A DNA stretch of 22,764 nucleotides from a virus: positions 1 through 22,764 of the IMG/VR virus record IMGVR_UViG_3300048013_000290. One strand, given 5' to 3'. Under the pieces are notes generated by a model. It saw only the letters and a program-made list of their open reading frames with translations. It ran no database searches and was not told where the DNA came from. How positions within the stretch are numbered: position 1 is the stretch's first letter; each line of letters starts with the position of its first letter. Below, in pieces: positions 3,001 through 20,648 of this stretch. The position numbers were made by a program, and so were the translations under genes.

Positions 3001-5162
3001 CAGGATCTGTATTGTTAGCGGTTTCTGAAAATGAAACAACAGGTATTTATTTGGGTGAACAACAATTACAGCAAACATCTAGTGGAGGTCAGTTTTTAGC
3101 GGTTTCCTCAGGTGTTATTGGAACAATGAATACATTACGAGGTTCATACGGTACAAGTCACCCCGAATCATTTGTTGTTAATGAGGGAAAGGCTTTTTGG
3201 TTTGATGTAAAAAATGAAACAGTAATAAAGTATGACAATAATGGTTTGACTGCCATTGGGGATGTTAAAATGAAAACTTTCTTTAAAGAAAAGTCTAATA
3301 TAATAAATAGCGACACAATACGTCATTTTGTAGTTGGAACGTATGATGACTATAACTCAGAATATATTTTAACTATACCAAGAACAGGAGAGGTTACAAC
3401 TGTGTTACAGCAGGACCCATATTATCCTGACACACCGGTTATAGAAATAACAAACGAGGGTAGTGAGCCAACATCAAAAGTTGTAACAGTTGAAATATTT
3501 AAACCTTGGGAAATGCAGTTTGAAATGACTGTAATTGATGGTGTCGGTACTATAACATTTAATAGTCCGTATACTTTTACGATACCATCTGGTGTTGTTC
3601 AAACTCCATCAGGATCTAATATAACTGTAACAAATGCCACAACAGGTGGTTTCACGTCATCTAATAATGAATTTTCTGGTTCTGGTACTTTAACAATATC
3701 TGGTGTATTTGGCGATGTAGAACATATAATTCTACAATTGAATAGAGTTATTCAACCAAGGTTGTCTGCTATTGTTGTTTCTAATTTAATAACATATACA
3801 AATGATACTGAATTAGATTTCGGAGCACAAACAAGTGGTAATACACCAATAAGAGTTACAGATGCTACAGATGGTACTTTTCCTATGTTTGAGGAAAAAA
3901 GTTTAGTCCCTTCTAATGGAACGTTAACAATACCTTGTACTTCTACAGTCCCATGGCAATTTGGTATAGCAGACAATAATTCTACTAATTTTACAGAATG
4001 TGAGTTAGGGGTTTGTTCTGATATTGCAGCAAATAGAATTACTACAAACGCTACTGCAATAACTGCGTCAAGCACAACTATAGGTTATCAACCAGGAACT
4101 TTTAACATCACTATCACAGGTATTGATGAAGATATAGACTCTATAGTTATAGATTCCAGACCACTTAAAAGAGCGGTATTTGGTAGTTTTACTTTTGATG
4201 ATATAACAGCATCAGGATTAAGTTTAAATTCATCTATAGTTTTAAATAAAGAAACAGCAACAGAATTCGGGTTTGTTTATTCTACTACAGACACTGATCC
4301 TTCAATAGGAGAATCTGGGGTGACCAAGGTTGCCTTATCAGGAAGTACTTCTGATATGTCACACACTATAACAGGATTAAGTGCAGACACAACAGTATAC
4401 GCAAAAGCATATTTAACATCTAACTTTGGAACAAGATATGGTGTTTGTTATAACCAGGCTACAGGATCAGCAAGTAATACAGCACCCGCAGTAACCTCTG
4501 ATAGTTTCAGTTCTACTAACAATAGGTTTACAGGAATTATAACTTCTAATGGAGGATCAACAGCAGGGACAAATGGTATTACAGAAAGAGGTTGGGTTTT
4601 CTCATCAAGCGACAACACTCCTACTATAGGTGAGTCAGGTGTTGTAAAAATACTAGCACCTCAAGTTGCTATTGATTCATTCCCTTACACTTATACAAGT
4701 CTTAATACTTTGTTAGTATCAGGCACACAATATTACTGGAGGGCATATGCTAAAAATGATGTAGGTACTTCTTATGGTGATGTGAAAACCTTCACCACAG
4801 CAGATACTTCAGTGGGTATTGGAGGGTTTACATTGCAAAGTAATAGTGTTTCAGGTAACGGTGGATATGTACAGGTTGATGTTACTAAAAATGTAACAAC
4901 AGGAATAGTAGCGGGAGACATAACATTTGTAATTTCTGCTAGTACTTCTATTATAGAAGGTGAAGAAGTAGCGGTAGCGTTTACAAATACACAAACTATA
5001 GACTCTGTTCAGGTGTACATTCCTGCAAATTATTCTGGTAGTAGTAGATATATTAATTTAAAAGTGAACTTATTTGATGGTATTCCAAACTTAACAGGAA
5101 GCAACACACCTGTTACAATACAAGGTACTATTAATCAAGCAAGTTCGTCATTTCAACCATAA
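3..5162 (+). CDS. Large tail structural protein, 5'-partial (muzzle/nozzle-type) with FN3-like C-terminus
   Basis: The frame is open from base 3, so the gene begins upstream of the window. The GTG at 90 is an internal valine codon: the 29 codons before it are uninterrupted and read like the rest. About 1719 residues are visible. The text from about 2750 to 3390 (NGLSKFSAL, an AVSENETTGIY stretch, YGTSHPES, AFWFDV, NGLTAIGDVKMKTFF, then a GTYDDYNSEYI motif) recalls the large structural proteins of crAss-like and Cellulophaga podoviruses. By position before the ejection genes it could form the lower tail (muzzle/nozzle). The C-terminal third is beta-rich: two FN3-like repeats (about 4180-4803), then a final domain from about 4815 with IPANYSGSSRY and an IQGTINQA end, resembling a BACON-type domain. 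Structural role is fairly secure; the exact tail position and the BACON reading are inferred. Confidence 0.8.
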   Translation, partial: DNLDALNVRVVSSSEGKAGSISNVNGTRLVPNYQSFYNVKVVGSYEDFTTNNVFYFLVNKDNNVSTIYCYKPEEDNIFKVLSDNNLDSTYSLNFNPDKPITGIGYIDDILYWTGVDGREPFRINVERGIKTNHTDYVTSENAYVTPISKSIVTLIRKPPMLPLQITVMEDTDRDTSFLKSRSHTFAYRYVYKDGETSVFSPTSYHYPNQDIDDDNHKTSRKIKVDFPLYEAESYGISQDVHKIQYAVKFDKDTSYFIWKEFDNITHATEFAAQKNNIEGAISADFYNDVLGFAVDDVNSIKLYDTIPYEAEALSIARNRLFLGNIKEGRLNTRQLKSTDIDLNIITQSFSDSFNQYDRDRGGKVSFSHASAYQIGLAFFDFAGRTGGVLTDNAMKVITPERELELDAYNAFINFNLNTETANSIIPDWAEYYAIVRTKNLIKDFTITNLSDSIRYYKIDSNGGFSVFVENNYPTNNENDNKGISGTPNGTFSDNQHVTFDPNHEGVAIGLGDLTSYKQGYTYQEGDRIKLITKDRIIEMAITGQEGRYVLCNLIDLNESDYLNTTVLSALDYSIIYEIYSPHKIQPNEFYYEAFNGRIIESGGQRTYSDTSGNLIGDVYVRSLAADLSAIEDHFHEGKQRSTSSQDSPIQGNVAYIDFPIFYGSGENDLSANTGVGNYTESDDYRYDIKINSTGSTDTFVWRRRSRVQLGISTSYSSPISITGSAQSLSGGVVITFENTTGHTLNDRWVVSAKTATNSNMDQLADKTMALYKPPPGGTILQGSRIKIYYIERRNPVGPNNFTHEWEVEYPGNLITETFVSLEELFWETTFGTQCASAFQNRKYAFSFRRGKMDNTNGGNQRIKILDSDGTAPGANVSLSDGSDIFMIVESRETEVGGGRDVRTTYSLLIDFAEEFAYKSESMNPSNDYFLNWIQITGKPNLVPSEVSSQKKTTGIVFSETKIPGSKINGLSKFSALDEKRLDDATGPLRVLQVTSKTQSTGSVLLAVSENETTGIYLGEQQLQQTSSGGQFLAVSSGVIGTMNTLRGSYGTSHPESFVVNEGKAFWFDVKNETVIKYDNNGLTAIGDVKMKTFFKEKSNIINSDTIRHFVVGTYDDYNSEYILTIPRTGEVTTVLQQDPYYPDTPVIEITNEGSEPTSKVVTVEIFKPWEMQFEMTVIDGVGTITFNSPYTFTIPSGVVQTPSGSNITVTNATTGGFTSSNNEFSGSGTLTISGVFGDVEHIILQLNRVIQPRLSAIVVSNLITYTNDTELDFGAQTSGNTPIRVTDATDGTFPMFEEKSLVPSNGTLTIPCTSTVPWQFGIADNNSTNFTECELGVCSDIAANRITTNATAITASSTTIGYQPGTFNITITGIDEDIDSIVIDSRPLKRAVFGSFTFDDITASGLSLNSSIVLNKETATEFGFVYSTTDTDPSIGESGVTKVALSGSTSDMSHTITGLSADTTVYAKAYLTSNFGTRYGVCYNQATGSASNTAPAVTSDSFSSTNNRFTGIITSNGGSTAGTNGITERGWVFSSSDNTPTIGESGVVKILAPQVAIDSFPYTYTSLNTLLVSGTQYYWRAYAKNDVGTSYGDVKTFTTADTSVGIGGFTLQSNSVSGNGGYVQVDVTKNVTTGIVAGDITFVISASTSIIEGEEVAVAFTNTQTIDSVQVYIPANYSGSSRYINLKVNLFDGIPNLTGSNTPVTIQGTINQASSSFQP
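4180..4803 (+). repeat. Two tandem FN3-like protein repeats in the large tail protein
   Basis: Two successive units of about 100 residues share a plan: an E-x-G-W/F-V-Y/F-S-S/T opening, the near-identical PSIGESGVTK and PTIGESGVVK, then a TVYAKAYLTSNFGTRYG or QYYWRAYAKNDVGTSYG strand pair. The pattern is familiar from FN3-like modules of Bacteroidetes surface proteins. The DNA has diverged, so this is an old protein-level duplication and not a recent DNA repeat. Carbohydrate or cell-surface contact is the usual inference for such modules on phage tails. Confidence 0.65.
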
Positions 5163-19208: not shown

Positions 19209-19670
19209 ATGAGCAAACCAAAAAAGAAATTTAAAGACACTAAGGTAGGTAAATTTTTAACAGACAAAGTTCCTTCAATACTTGGAATTGTTGGAGATGT
19301 TTTACCAGATGCAGGTGTATTAGGAGTAGTAAAAGGATTAATTGATAAGCAGGATCCTGCTGTTTTACCTCCTGAAGACAAGGAAAAAGCAATGAAGTTG
19401 CTAGAACTTGATATGATTGAGTTACAAGAAGTAAGTAAACGTTGGGACTCTGACATGAAATCAGACTCATGGCTTTCAAAGAACACACGTCCGCTAACAC
19501 TAATTTACTTAACAGTAATTACTTCTTTATATATATTATTAGATGCAATGGATATTGCGTTTGATATTGATGAAAGTTGGGTAGAACTTTTGAAAACTCT
19601 TTTGGTTACAATTTATGTTGCATATTTCGGATCTCGTGGATTTGAAAAGTACAGCACAATAAAAAAATAG
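19209..19670 (+). CDS. Holin of the GTA/3TM type
   Basis: 153 residues. A basic N-terminus (SKPKKKFKDTKVGK) precedes a hydrophobic amphipathic stretch (about 22-43, ILGIVGDVLPDAGVLGVV). A helix with KRWDSDMKSDSWLSKNTRPL (78-97) leads into two clear transmembrane segments (about 95-113 and 127-143), and the protein ends YFGSRGFEKY. The W-D-x-D-M-x-S-D-S-W-L-x-K-x-x-R-P signature followed by TM segments and a YFGxRGxEK end is what I know from the 3TM phage/gene-transfer-agent holins. It would make the membrane lesions that let the amidase reach the cell wall. It is the last gene of the rightward block and meets the leftward genes 9 bases later. Confidence 0.7.
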   Translation: MSKPKKKFKDTKVGKFLTDKVPSILGIVGDVLPDAGVLGVVKGLIDKQDPAVLPPEDKEKAMKLLELDMIELQEVSKRWDSDMKSDSWLSKNTRPLTLIYLTVITSLYILLDAMDIAFDIDESWVELLKTLLVTIYVAYFGSRGFEKYSTIKK

Positions 19671-19697
19671 TTAGGAGACTTAAATCCCCCAACTATT
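19661..19697. terminator. Hairpin at the convergence of the two blocks, possible bidirectional terminator
   Basis: AATAGTT (19666-19672) pairs with AACTATT (19691-19697); after one mismatch GG/CC can add two pairs. On the - strand the hairpin is followed by a run of seven T (complement of 19661-19667), a fair intrinsic terminator for the leftward genes. On the + strand the downstream tract (ATTAGTAT) is weak. The element overlaps the ends of both convergent genes. Confidence 0.45.
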
Positions 19698-20030
19698 ATT
19701 AGTATACTCAAACCATCCTTTGTGTTCCTCAGGAGGTTTATTTCTGTTTTTCATTTGGTTTAATGGTTCTTCCTGATCTTTTAATGCAATAAGTAAAAGA
19801 ATTAAATATCCAACAAGATCTTTAACAGTATCTTCTGTTTTGTCATAAATACCTTTTTGTTTTATCCTAGATATTTTATCGTCTATTCTTGCACATAAAG
19901 ATTTGACCGGATCTCCATCACCAAATATACTTACAGGAGATGTTGCGGAATCTCCGTAGTCTGCGTTTTTAGAAATAAGAAGGCCGATGATTTCAGCACC
20001 GACCCTCTCAATTTTTTCTCTAGTATCCAT
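19680..20030 (-). CDS. DUF1599 / nucleotide-modification-associated (Nmad1-type) protein
   Basis: 116 residues. The first two thirds match the DUF1599 pattern: KNADYGDSA (21-29), an FGDGDP turn, RIDDKISRIKQKG (48-60) and EDTVKDLVGYLILLLIALKD (66-85). The conserved acidic and arginine residues resemble those of all-alpha MazG-like NTP-processing proteins. Family members are found near nucleotide-modification genes and in phages, but the biochemical activity is not firmly known to me. The last 30 residues (KNRNKPPEEHKGWFEY region) are unlike the core. The start codon shares a base with the stop of the SSB-like gene (TAATG on the - strand). A role in the phage nucleotide pool or modified DNA is plausible, not shown. 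Confidence 0.65.
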   Translation of the reverse strand: MDTREKIERVGAEIIGLLISKNADYGDSATSPVSIFGDGDPVKSLCARIDDKISRIKQKGIYDKTEDTVKDLVGYLILLLIALKDQEEPLNQMKNRNKPPEEHKGWFEYTNNSWGI

Positions 20031-20395
20031 TAAAATGATAAACCATCATTAACAGCCGCTTCAACGTTGTTAGCGTGAGTATTATTGCTGTTAGGAATAT
20101 TACCATCCGCATAAGTAATTTTCCATGCATTAGCATTTGCTGTCCTAAGATTATTGTCACGATCTCTGTAACTTCTTAAGTTAATAGAAACCTTTACTTC
20201 ATCTCCTGGTTTGTATGCATTAAACAAATTTGCTTTAGCACCAATTGCTTCTACAGGATAGTCAACAGGATACTGAGAATCAGCACCTAATTCAACTGTT
20301 AGTACTCTTTTTTCAATATCTCCTTTTTGAGTTTGAATGGTTTGTGCATCTGAGATTTCTTTGATGCGACCTTGTAATTCTACTGAATTTGACAT
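20030..20395 (-). CDS. DUF3127-type OB-fold single-stranded DNA-binding-like protein
   Basis: 121 residues. The body reads as an OB fold of the DUF3127 type, common in Bacteroidetes: ELQGRIKEISDAQ (6-18), KRVLTVEL (29-36), YPVDYPVEA (42-50), a KPGDEVKVSINLRSYRDRD stretch (62-80) and NANAWKI (87-93). A disordered Asn-rich linker (about 98-112) and a short tail VNDGLSF follow. The tail recalls the D-D-x-P-F tip by which SSB proteins recruit partners, although only one acidic residue remains. It probably coats single-stranded DNA during replication, working beside the primase-helicase and the nuclease of the same leftward set. Confidence 0.65.
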   Translation of the reverse strand: MSNSVELQGRIKEISDAQTIQTQKGDIEKRVLTVELGADSQYPVDYPVEAIGAKANLFNAYKPGDEVKVSINLRSYRDRDNNLRTANANAWKITYADGNIPNSNNTHANNVEAAVNDGLSF

Positions 20396-20419
20396 AATTA
20401 TTAATTAAAGTGTTATATA
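20389..20419 (+). promoter_or_regulatory. Candidate sigma70-like promoter for a + strand RNA
   Basis: TTGACA (20389-20394) and TATATA (20414-20419) are 19 bases apart on the + strand and would start a transcript near 20425. The TTGACA overlaps the start codon region of the leftward SSB-like gene (its ATGTCAAA gives TTTGACAT), so it may be accidental. The spacing is 2 above the usual 17, and Bacteroidetes hosts use a different promoter consensus. Support comes mainly from the structured, terminator-ended segment that follows. Confidence 0.2.
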
Positions 20420-20526
20420 TATTCAGAGGTGTCTAAGCCTCTCGCCTGAAGATATTCCAGGACTTCACAGACGATAACATTTACATCGTCTATTTTCGTT
20501 GCGAGAGTTTCATCCAACTCTCTTAA
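20413..20526 (-). other. Open -1 frame continuing the 41-codon ORF (frameshift product, or chance)
   Basis: If the ribosome slips back one base on A-AAA-AAT (20532-20526), reading continues LRELDETLATKIDDV and ends ARGLDTSEYI before TAA at 20413-20415, 17 bases upstream of the SSB-like start. There is no ATG or GTG in this frame; the only alternative start is a TTG at 20517-20515. The text could form an amphipathic helix, but many codons end in G or C (CTC, ATC, GTC, CTG, GCG, GGC), unlike the neighbours. A one-base error in the A8 run of the assembly would have the same effect. Confidence 0.25.
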
Positions 20527-20534
20527 TTTTTTTT
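20425..20534 (+). ncRNA. Candidate structured small RNA with three-way junction and terminator
   Basis: About 110 bases with dense perfect complementarity. An outer stem CTCTCGC (20439-20445) with GCGAGAG (20501-20507) encloses two hairpins separated by single bases: TGAAG/CTTCA (20447-20451, 20463-20467) and AGACGAT/ATCGTCT (20469-20475, 20485-20491). A 5' hairpin AGAGG/CCTCT (20425-20429, 20438-20442) and a 3' hairpin GAGAGTT/AACTCTC (20503-20509, 20516-20522) compete with the outer stem, and the 3' one is followed by TTAA and T8. Bases 20421-20520 hold 43 G/C per 100, against 30 per 100 in 20541-20640. Strand choice rests on the T tract. The same segment could instead act as structure in the leftward mRNA or be part of a frameshifted gene. 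Confidence 0.35.
20503..20534 (+). terminator. Terminator-like hairpin plus T8 on the + strand
   Basis: A perfect 7-bp stem GAGAGTT/AACTCTC with the six-base loop TCATCC is followed by TTAA and eight T. It could end the candidate small RNA, or catch rightward late transcription that passes the weak hairpin near 19680 before it runs further antisense into the leftward genes. The stem has only three G-C pairs, so its strength is uncertain. Confidence 0.4.
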
Positions 20535-20648
20535 ATCCTCCTTAGTGTTGTTTACTGAAACAATACTTACATGTAACTTGTTGTGCTCTGTAAGAAGTTT
20601 ATCTATTGTAGGAATTCTAATTTTATAATTTACCGGCATCTCTTCCAT
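20523..20648 (-). CDS. Small hypothetical protein (41 aa), possibly extended by a -1 frameshift
   Basis: The ATG follows directly after the stop of the nuclease gene (TAAATG on the - strand), which favours coupled translation. The product begins MEEMPVNYKIRIPTIDKLL and ends KEDKKN. Codon use is A/T-ending like its neighbours. No family is recognised. The last codons run over eight consecutive A (20534-20527) just after an AAGGAGG. The frame one base back is open for a further 37 codons to a stop at 20413-20415, so the full product might be 78 residues. Its reality as a gene rests on spacing and coding texture only. Confidence 0.45.
   Translation of the reverse strand: MEEMPVNYKIRIPTIDKLLTEHNKLHVSIVSVNNTKEDKKN

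Follow-up and report, generated by a model that had tools for sequence, protein, structure and literature searches.

A conserved two-hairpin leader RNA, and putative translational operator, upstream of a DUF3127 single-stranded DNA-binding protein gene in marine phages

The best-known case of a single-stranded DNA-binding protein (SSB) governing its own synthesis through its own mRNA is that of the T4 group of phages. Once T4 gp32 is in surplus over single-stranded DNA, it first binds a pseudoknot located 67 nt upstream, as its nucleation site, and from there extends across the ribosome site; the fold of the gene 32 operator begins ~67 nt before the AUG and is followed by an unstructured A+U-rich part (PMC3014915, PMC535899). 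The fold overlaps the ORF segG, which is missing in RB69, and the recognition of one mRNA by an unspecific ssDNA-binding protein has been described as unclear (PMC535899). A second structured element, the STAXI RNA motif, occurs near SSB, topoisomerase, antirestriction and integrase genes (PMC2864571).

The whole stretch of DNA analysed here (the window) is an IMG/VR virus record of 22,764 bases, in which a block of rightward genes (large structural proteins and an amidase) ends at 19,670 and a leftward block, 22,657-19,680, encodes a primase/helicase, a RusA-like resolvase, a short ORF, a DUF3127 SSB and a 116-aa protein. A terminator-like hairpin at 19666-19697 lies between the converging blocks. 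The predicted model of the SSB is of moderate confidence (pLDDT 69), with its best Foldseek matches being SSBs without exception, and resembles bacterial SSBs. A preliminary description had drawn a compact three-way junction RNA at 20425-20534, between ssb and a “41-codon ORF”. A structured RNA is real at this site, yet it is different from the one drawn, with the following features:

20030-20395, - strand: ssb (DUF3127 / phrog_4932), the presumed regulated gene
20393-20465, - strand: the whole ssb-leader element, AAGUCCU...AUG (P1, P2, AU-rich tail and ssb start codon), aligned in 23 distinct versions
20444-20463, - strand: hairpin P1, closed by G20463-C20444, with a bulged U20462, 6 bp (20461-20456/20445-20450) and a 5-nt loop
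20425-20442, - strand: hairpin P2, AGAGG / CCUCU with an 8-nt variable loop
20396-20424, - strand: tail GAAUAUAUAUAACACUUUAAUUAAUAAUU from P2 to the ssb AUG, AU-rich and mostly unpaired
20469-20491, - strand: accessory hairpin P0 (AGACGAU / AUCGUCU), within the 78-codon gene
20413-20648, - strand: 78-codon gene (MEEMPVNYKIRIP...SEYI), frameshifted in the window, its 3′ end overlapping the RNA
20503-20534, + strand: terminator-like hairpin with T8, facing the rightward genes, in the coding sequence of the 78-codon gene
19977-20009, - strand: hairpin H2, 13 bp, just inside the gene following ssb and near its start codon (z -5.9)

A search with the SSB as query yielded 58 loci. Of 2.9 million viral contigs, 63 were hit in the final pattern scan, with similar counts in other scans. 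The element lies immediately 5′ of ssb in 63/63 motif contigs, its distance to the AUG being constant within 3 nt, and a covariance model finds every one of 28 records, those of 56-64 kb included, to have a single strong copy (E ≤ 4e-14), with extra matches in the same phages at chance level only. The fixed spacing, the end at the start codon and an invariant tail suggestive of specific recognition would suit an element of the standby or translation-promoting kind, or else an operator for a phage or host protein other than the SSB (e.g. a ribosomal protein or a translational repressor of the phage). In the case of the other-protein operator, however, one would expect a general phage repressor to act at several genes, whereas only ssb carries the element, in one copy per record, and we consider this pair of readings quite unlikely.

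The carriers of the leader are a family of marine phages, the relatives forming one phage clade, of which the most distant member, L172 (63% SSB identity), holds a diverged copy (E 3.8e-5) with a degenerate P1. No similar DNA was found in the annotated phage collection, and 84,980 genomes of bacteria and archaea yielded neither relatives nor the motif; in cultured phages, distant DUF3127 ssb genes are preceded by different genes and leave a leader little space or none. Exact-pattern matches outside the family (L064 and L108) and tail-only matches (L124-L126) lack the rest of the element and were set aside as chance. In two contigs, L039 and L040, an insertion of 60 nt (about 4850-4915) separates the ssb leader from the resolvase stop and forms a terminator-like hairpin followed by a U run, and in L054 (640-760) the 78-codon gene is fused straight to SSB codon 12, with leader and ssb start missing, a junction reflecting either a deletion or a chimeric assembly.

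The consensus of the 23 versions reads AAGUCCU-NNA-loop-UNN-AGGCGAG, AGAGG-N8-CCUCU, UCUGAAUAUAUAUAACA, an AU-rich run and AUG, giving a leader of ~70 nt whose 3′ end is the ssb start codon and which overlaps the 3′ end of the 78-codon gene. P1 and P2 are paired in 99.6% of cells, compared with at most 59% when the partner strand is slid. The P1 pair 20458-20448 (alignment 10-20) occurs in GC, AU, UA, CG and UG forms, with four independent compensatory changes on the ssb tree, placing it top of 1540 column pairs, and P2 is paired in every cell in 23 sequences, with a G-C to A-U double change and several G-U forms. RNAalifold recovers P1, with its closing G-C and bulged U, and P2, and in the ORF group also P0. 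P1 and P2 are the leading helices among those holding in at least 90% of sequences; at the ssb start codon, a weak AU/GU helix of 5 bp matches P2 in length. The weak alternatives, AAGU/ACUU enclosing both hairpins and UAUAA/UUAUG at the start codon, pair in at least 90% of rows, and were rejected with no compensatory changes among the top pairs. A search for a pseudoknot holding across the set gave no extra helix both compatible with P1-P2 and covarying, and pairing of the P1 loop with the tail, as a candidate pseudoknot, is broken by a change of that loop in L122.

G-U wobble forms occur at 5 of the 11 positions counted (10-20, 11-19, 28-41, 29-40 and 30-39), and as these would be A-C mismatches on the + strand, they place the functional RNA on the - strand. 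One pair of P0 is found as UA, GC, CG, GU and AU, with 11 double-changed cells; P0 is missing from relatives lacking the long ORF, and weak in L050, L053 and L071. The relatives have unremarkable folding energies (z from about 0 to -2.5), and the case for a structured leader is one of covariation and constraint read from aligned sequences.

Constraint is seen in the fixed sequences AAGU, AGGC 3′ of P1, and UCUGAAUAUAUAUAACA in the tail, the last being the longest invariant run at 17 nt, the next longest having 10, over 3.7 kb aligned from 11 divergent loci. The tail is 88-91% AU, with a mean unpaired probability of 0.44-0.74 that exceeds the surroundings in 23/23 versions, only slightly in some, e.g. 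L018. If the element instead acted as DNA, its hairpin potential being incidental, it could be an integration site, an origin or a promoter within the operon (TATATATAAC). Such a role would fit the AT-rich invariant run and a gene ~1.2 kb downstream of ssb in some relatives (L026, 6227-7498; L027, 6207-7460), which we take, by eye, to be integrase-like. In P1 and P2, however, the compensatory changes and the G-U forms preserve pairing and not sequence, a scan for promoters of the sigma-70 type placed no site for an ssb mRNA start within the tail, and the tail has no second copy in the window at up to 3 mismatches, making a DNA-level element improbable. The spot that holds the integrase-like gene in L026 and L027 is taken in the window by rightward structural genes.

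The complementary segments of the three-way junction are present as first drawn, with an outer stem (20439-20445 CTCTCGC/20501-20507 GCGAGAG) enclosing a 5-bp hairpin (20447-20451 TGAAG/20463-20467 CTTCA) and a 7-bp hairpin (20469-20475/20485-20491). The segment 20425-20534 also folds better than 200/200 shuffled controls on both strands (z -5.19 on the - strand, -3.61 on the + strand), and its 75-nt part is GC-rich (0.427) relative to the flanks (0.315 and 0.270), as had been noted. Among relatives, however, the outer stem and the 5-bp hairpin are lost, pairing in 80% and 76% of cells respectively across 18 homologues, with failures that are mostly mismatches. The outer stem is predicted with a probability of 0.98 for the window and L002 and of 0.00-0.41 for every other relative tested, whereas the 5-bp hairpin reaches at most 0.02 everywhere, the window included. 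The outer stem outcompetes P2 in the window and, among the relatives tested, in L002 only; L003 and L004 have the same sequence as L002. The three-way junction fold is thus a local peculiarity of the window and its near-identical relatives. Covariation is borne out for the 7-bp hairpin (P0, 20469-20491) and not for the other two stems of the drawing, and is found instead in P1 (20444-20463), with P2 (20425-20442), absent from the drawing, also conserved; conservation is moreover highest at 20396-20424, beyond the bounds drawn earlier.

A free phage small RNA with the three-way junction shape would agree with the strong fold in the window and its outer-stem probability of 0.98. The loss of two of its stems in relatives, together with a search for a - strand terminator at its end that found none, renders this reading extremely improbable. 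On the + strand, the terminator-like hairpin with T8 of the preliminary description is present (20503-20522), kept in only part of the relatives (74.6% of cells), with the T8 run corresponding to an A-rich codon stretch of the 78-codon gene.

The “41-codon ORF” proved to be an artefact of a one-base indel in this 78-codon gene, which runs through the whole segment. The window has A8 at 20527-20534, either a sequencing error or a real mutation, where its nearest relatives L002-L004 have A9, cutting 78 codons to 41; the A9 frame reaches a stop TAA at 20415-20413, and the shorter ORF is its first half. Family searches with the 78-aa protein gave no convincing assignment. As the segment first marked lies within a coding frame in most relatives, the question becomes one of RNA or protein conservation. 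Conservation of the protein C-terminus (ARG..TSEYI) alone, with pairing by chance, would accord with a long frame open in 48/63 contigs and a C-terminus conserved as protein. In the 15/63 contigs in which the frame is absent, broken by a TAG inside P1 or lacking an ATG start, the core is nevertheless kept. Six distinct no-ORF versions show changes at 0/41 core sites, with differences confined to paired positions and the P2 loop, whereas their ssb synonymous sites differ by 24-47%; zero changes in 41 sites at neutral 24-38% has a chance of about 1e-5 to 3e-9 for a single sequence pair. Within the ORF group, any synonymous change is absent from codon -16 (V), codon -9 (R) and the last four, -4 to -1 (S, E, Y, I), compared with 43% of same-residue pairs differing further upstream, and conservation extends beyond the 78-codon stop (AACA).

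The unchanged core in no-ORF relatives with diverged ssb synonymous sites places selection on the RNA and not on the peptide, and a peptide-only explanation is very improbable; conservation solely as amino acids of a - strand frame, the outcome named in the preliminary description as counting against an RNA, is ruled out for the P1-P2-tail core by these relatives. Upstream of AAGUCCU these relatives retain no more than about 10-15 nt, and the 5′ boundary of the element is thereby marked. On comparative grounds, P1, P2, the invariant tail and the AU-rich stretch to the AUG are under selection as - strand RNA. Of the interpretations first offered, the one that stands is a structured leader or intercistronic element of the leftward mRNA, given its strand, its fixed site before ssb, its covariation and its retention where the frame is lost.

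We propose that the element is a cis-acting RNA operator controlling translation of ssb, a reading to which the sequence data lead us to assign a probability of roughly 0.5. From the position of the element and the analogy with T4 we infer the SSB itself to be the ligand. The operator would sit in the leftward early/replication mRNA and set the SSB level, with SSB in excess of the available single-stranded DNA binding its own leader. Binding would start at the P1-P2-tail site and spread along the unstructured AU-rich stretch across the ribosome entry site, which, once coated with SSB, would no longer permit ssb translation. Where the 78-codon gene is present, its ribosomes would melt P1 and P2 and terminate ~20 nt before the ssb AUG, such that its translation could counteract repression. 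Sequence-specific recognition, which an SSB does not typically show, is suggested by the invariant 17-nt run, and we count this against the SSB as ligand. Also weighing against the operator are the negative outcome of the pseudoknot search across the set, the degenerate P1 of L172, the unremarkable folding energies of the relatives and the differing upstream context of distant DUF3127 ssb genes in cultured phages.

The main rival to an operator arises because H2 sits just downstream of ssb. H2 is paired in 95% of cells and includes a double change from C-G to U-A, and its invariant G-U pairs fit the - strand; in L042, unrelated sequence at the H2 site is again hairpin-forming. As elements of intercistronic processing or stability, the leader hairpins would define or protect the processed 5′ end of the ssb mRNA and H2 its 3′ side, such that ssb is expressed above its operon neighbours with no SSB binding. 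Structured elements do flank ssb on both sides, and an AU-rich single-stranded tail beside hairpins is a usual context for cleavage. Protective hairpins, however, seldom require invariant sequence, whereas AAGU, AGGC and the 17-nt tail run are fixed, and H2 lies within the coding sequence of the next gene. That RNase E processes T4 gene 32 mRNA into a stable form (cited in PMC3014915) favours this rival, which we regard as unlikely overall, if the most serious of those considered.

Returning to the operator, we entertain more tentatively, at clearly less than even odds, that the locus represents an undescribed RNA family, in which a DUF3127 OB-fold SSB represses itself via a two-hairpin and invariant-tail operator, independently of T4 gp32, with H2 coupling the next gene. 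If so, feedback from free single-stranded DNA to SSB synthesis would seem to be a recurring phage solution, found here in an unrelated SSB type, and the leader would offer a short, bounded RNA (~70 nt) for studying mRNA choice by an unspecific ssDNA-binding protein.

That the element belongs to no known class, as first proposed, agrees with Rfam, which gives 0 matches above the gathering threshold in the window, and with tRNA and tmRNA searches, which found none. The best sub-threshold Rfam match in the region, to the L20 leader (RF00558; 18 bits, E 0.44), is far below the gathering score of 58.7 and lies on the + strand, opposite to the supported RNA. The likeness to phi29 pRNA is limited to the three-way junction shape as drawn in the window, and the analogy with packaging RNA falls with the specificity of that junction to the window sequence; the junction is not conserved, and the element belongs to the mRNA of replication genes and has no Rfam match. 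STAXI is likewise a structured element near ssb genes (PMC2864571), however it is a repeated pseudoknot, whereas the leader here is a single copy of two hairpins without an Rfam match. The T4 gene 32 operator is also a pseudoknot, in contrast to the two plain hairpins with a U bulge found here, which do not qualify as one; furthermore, the element here has invariant sequences, and the SSB is a DUF3127 protein resembling bacterial SSBs, its autoregulation being putative. The resemblance to the operators of T4 and RB69 gene 32 is nonetheless one of site and layout, with the element directly upstream of a phage ssb (63/63 contigs here), the folded part beginning ~70 nt before the AUG, an A+U-rich unstructured part extending from the 3′ side of the fold to the ribosome site, and the fold overlapping the end of an upstream ORF that is lost in some relatives, segG in the one case and the 78-codon gene in the other.
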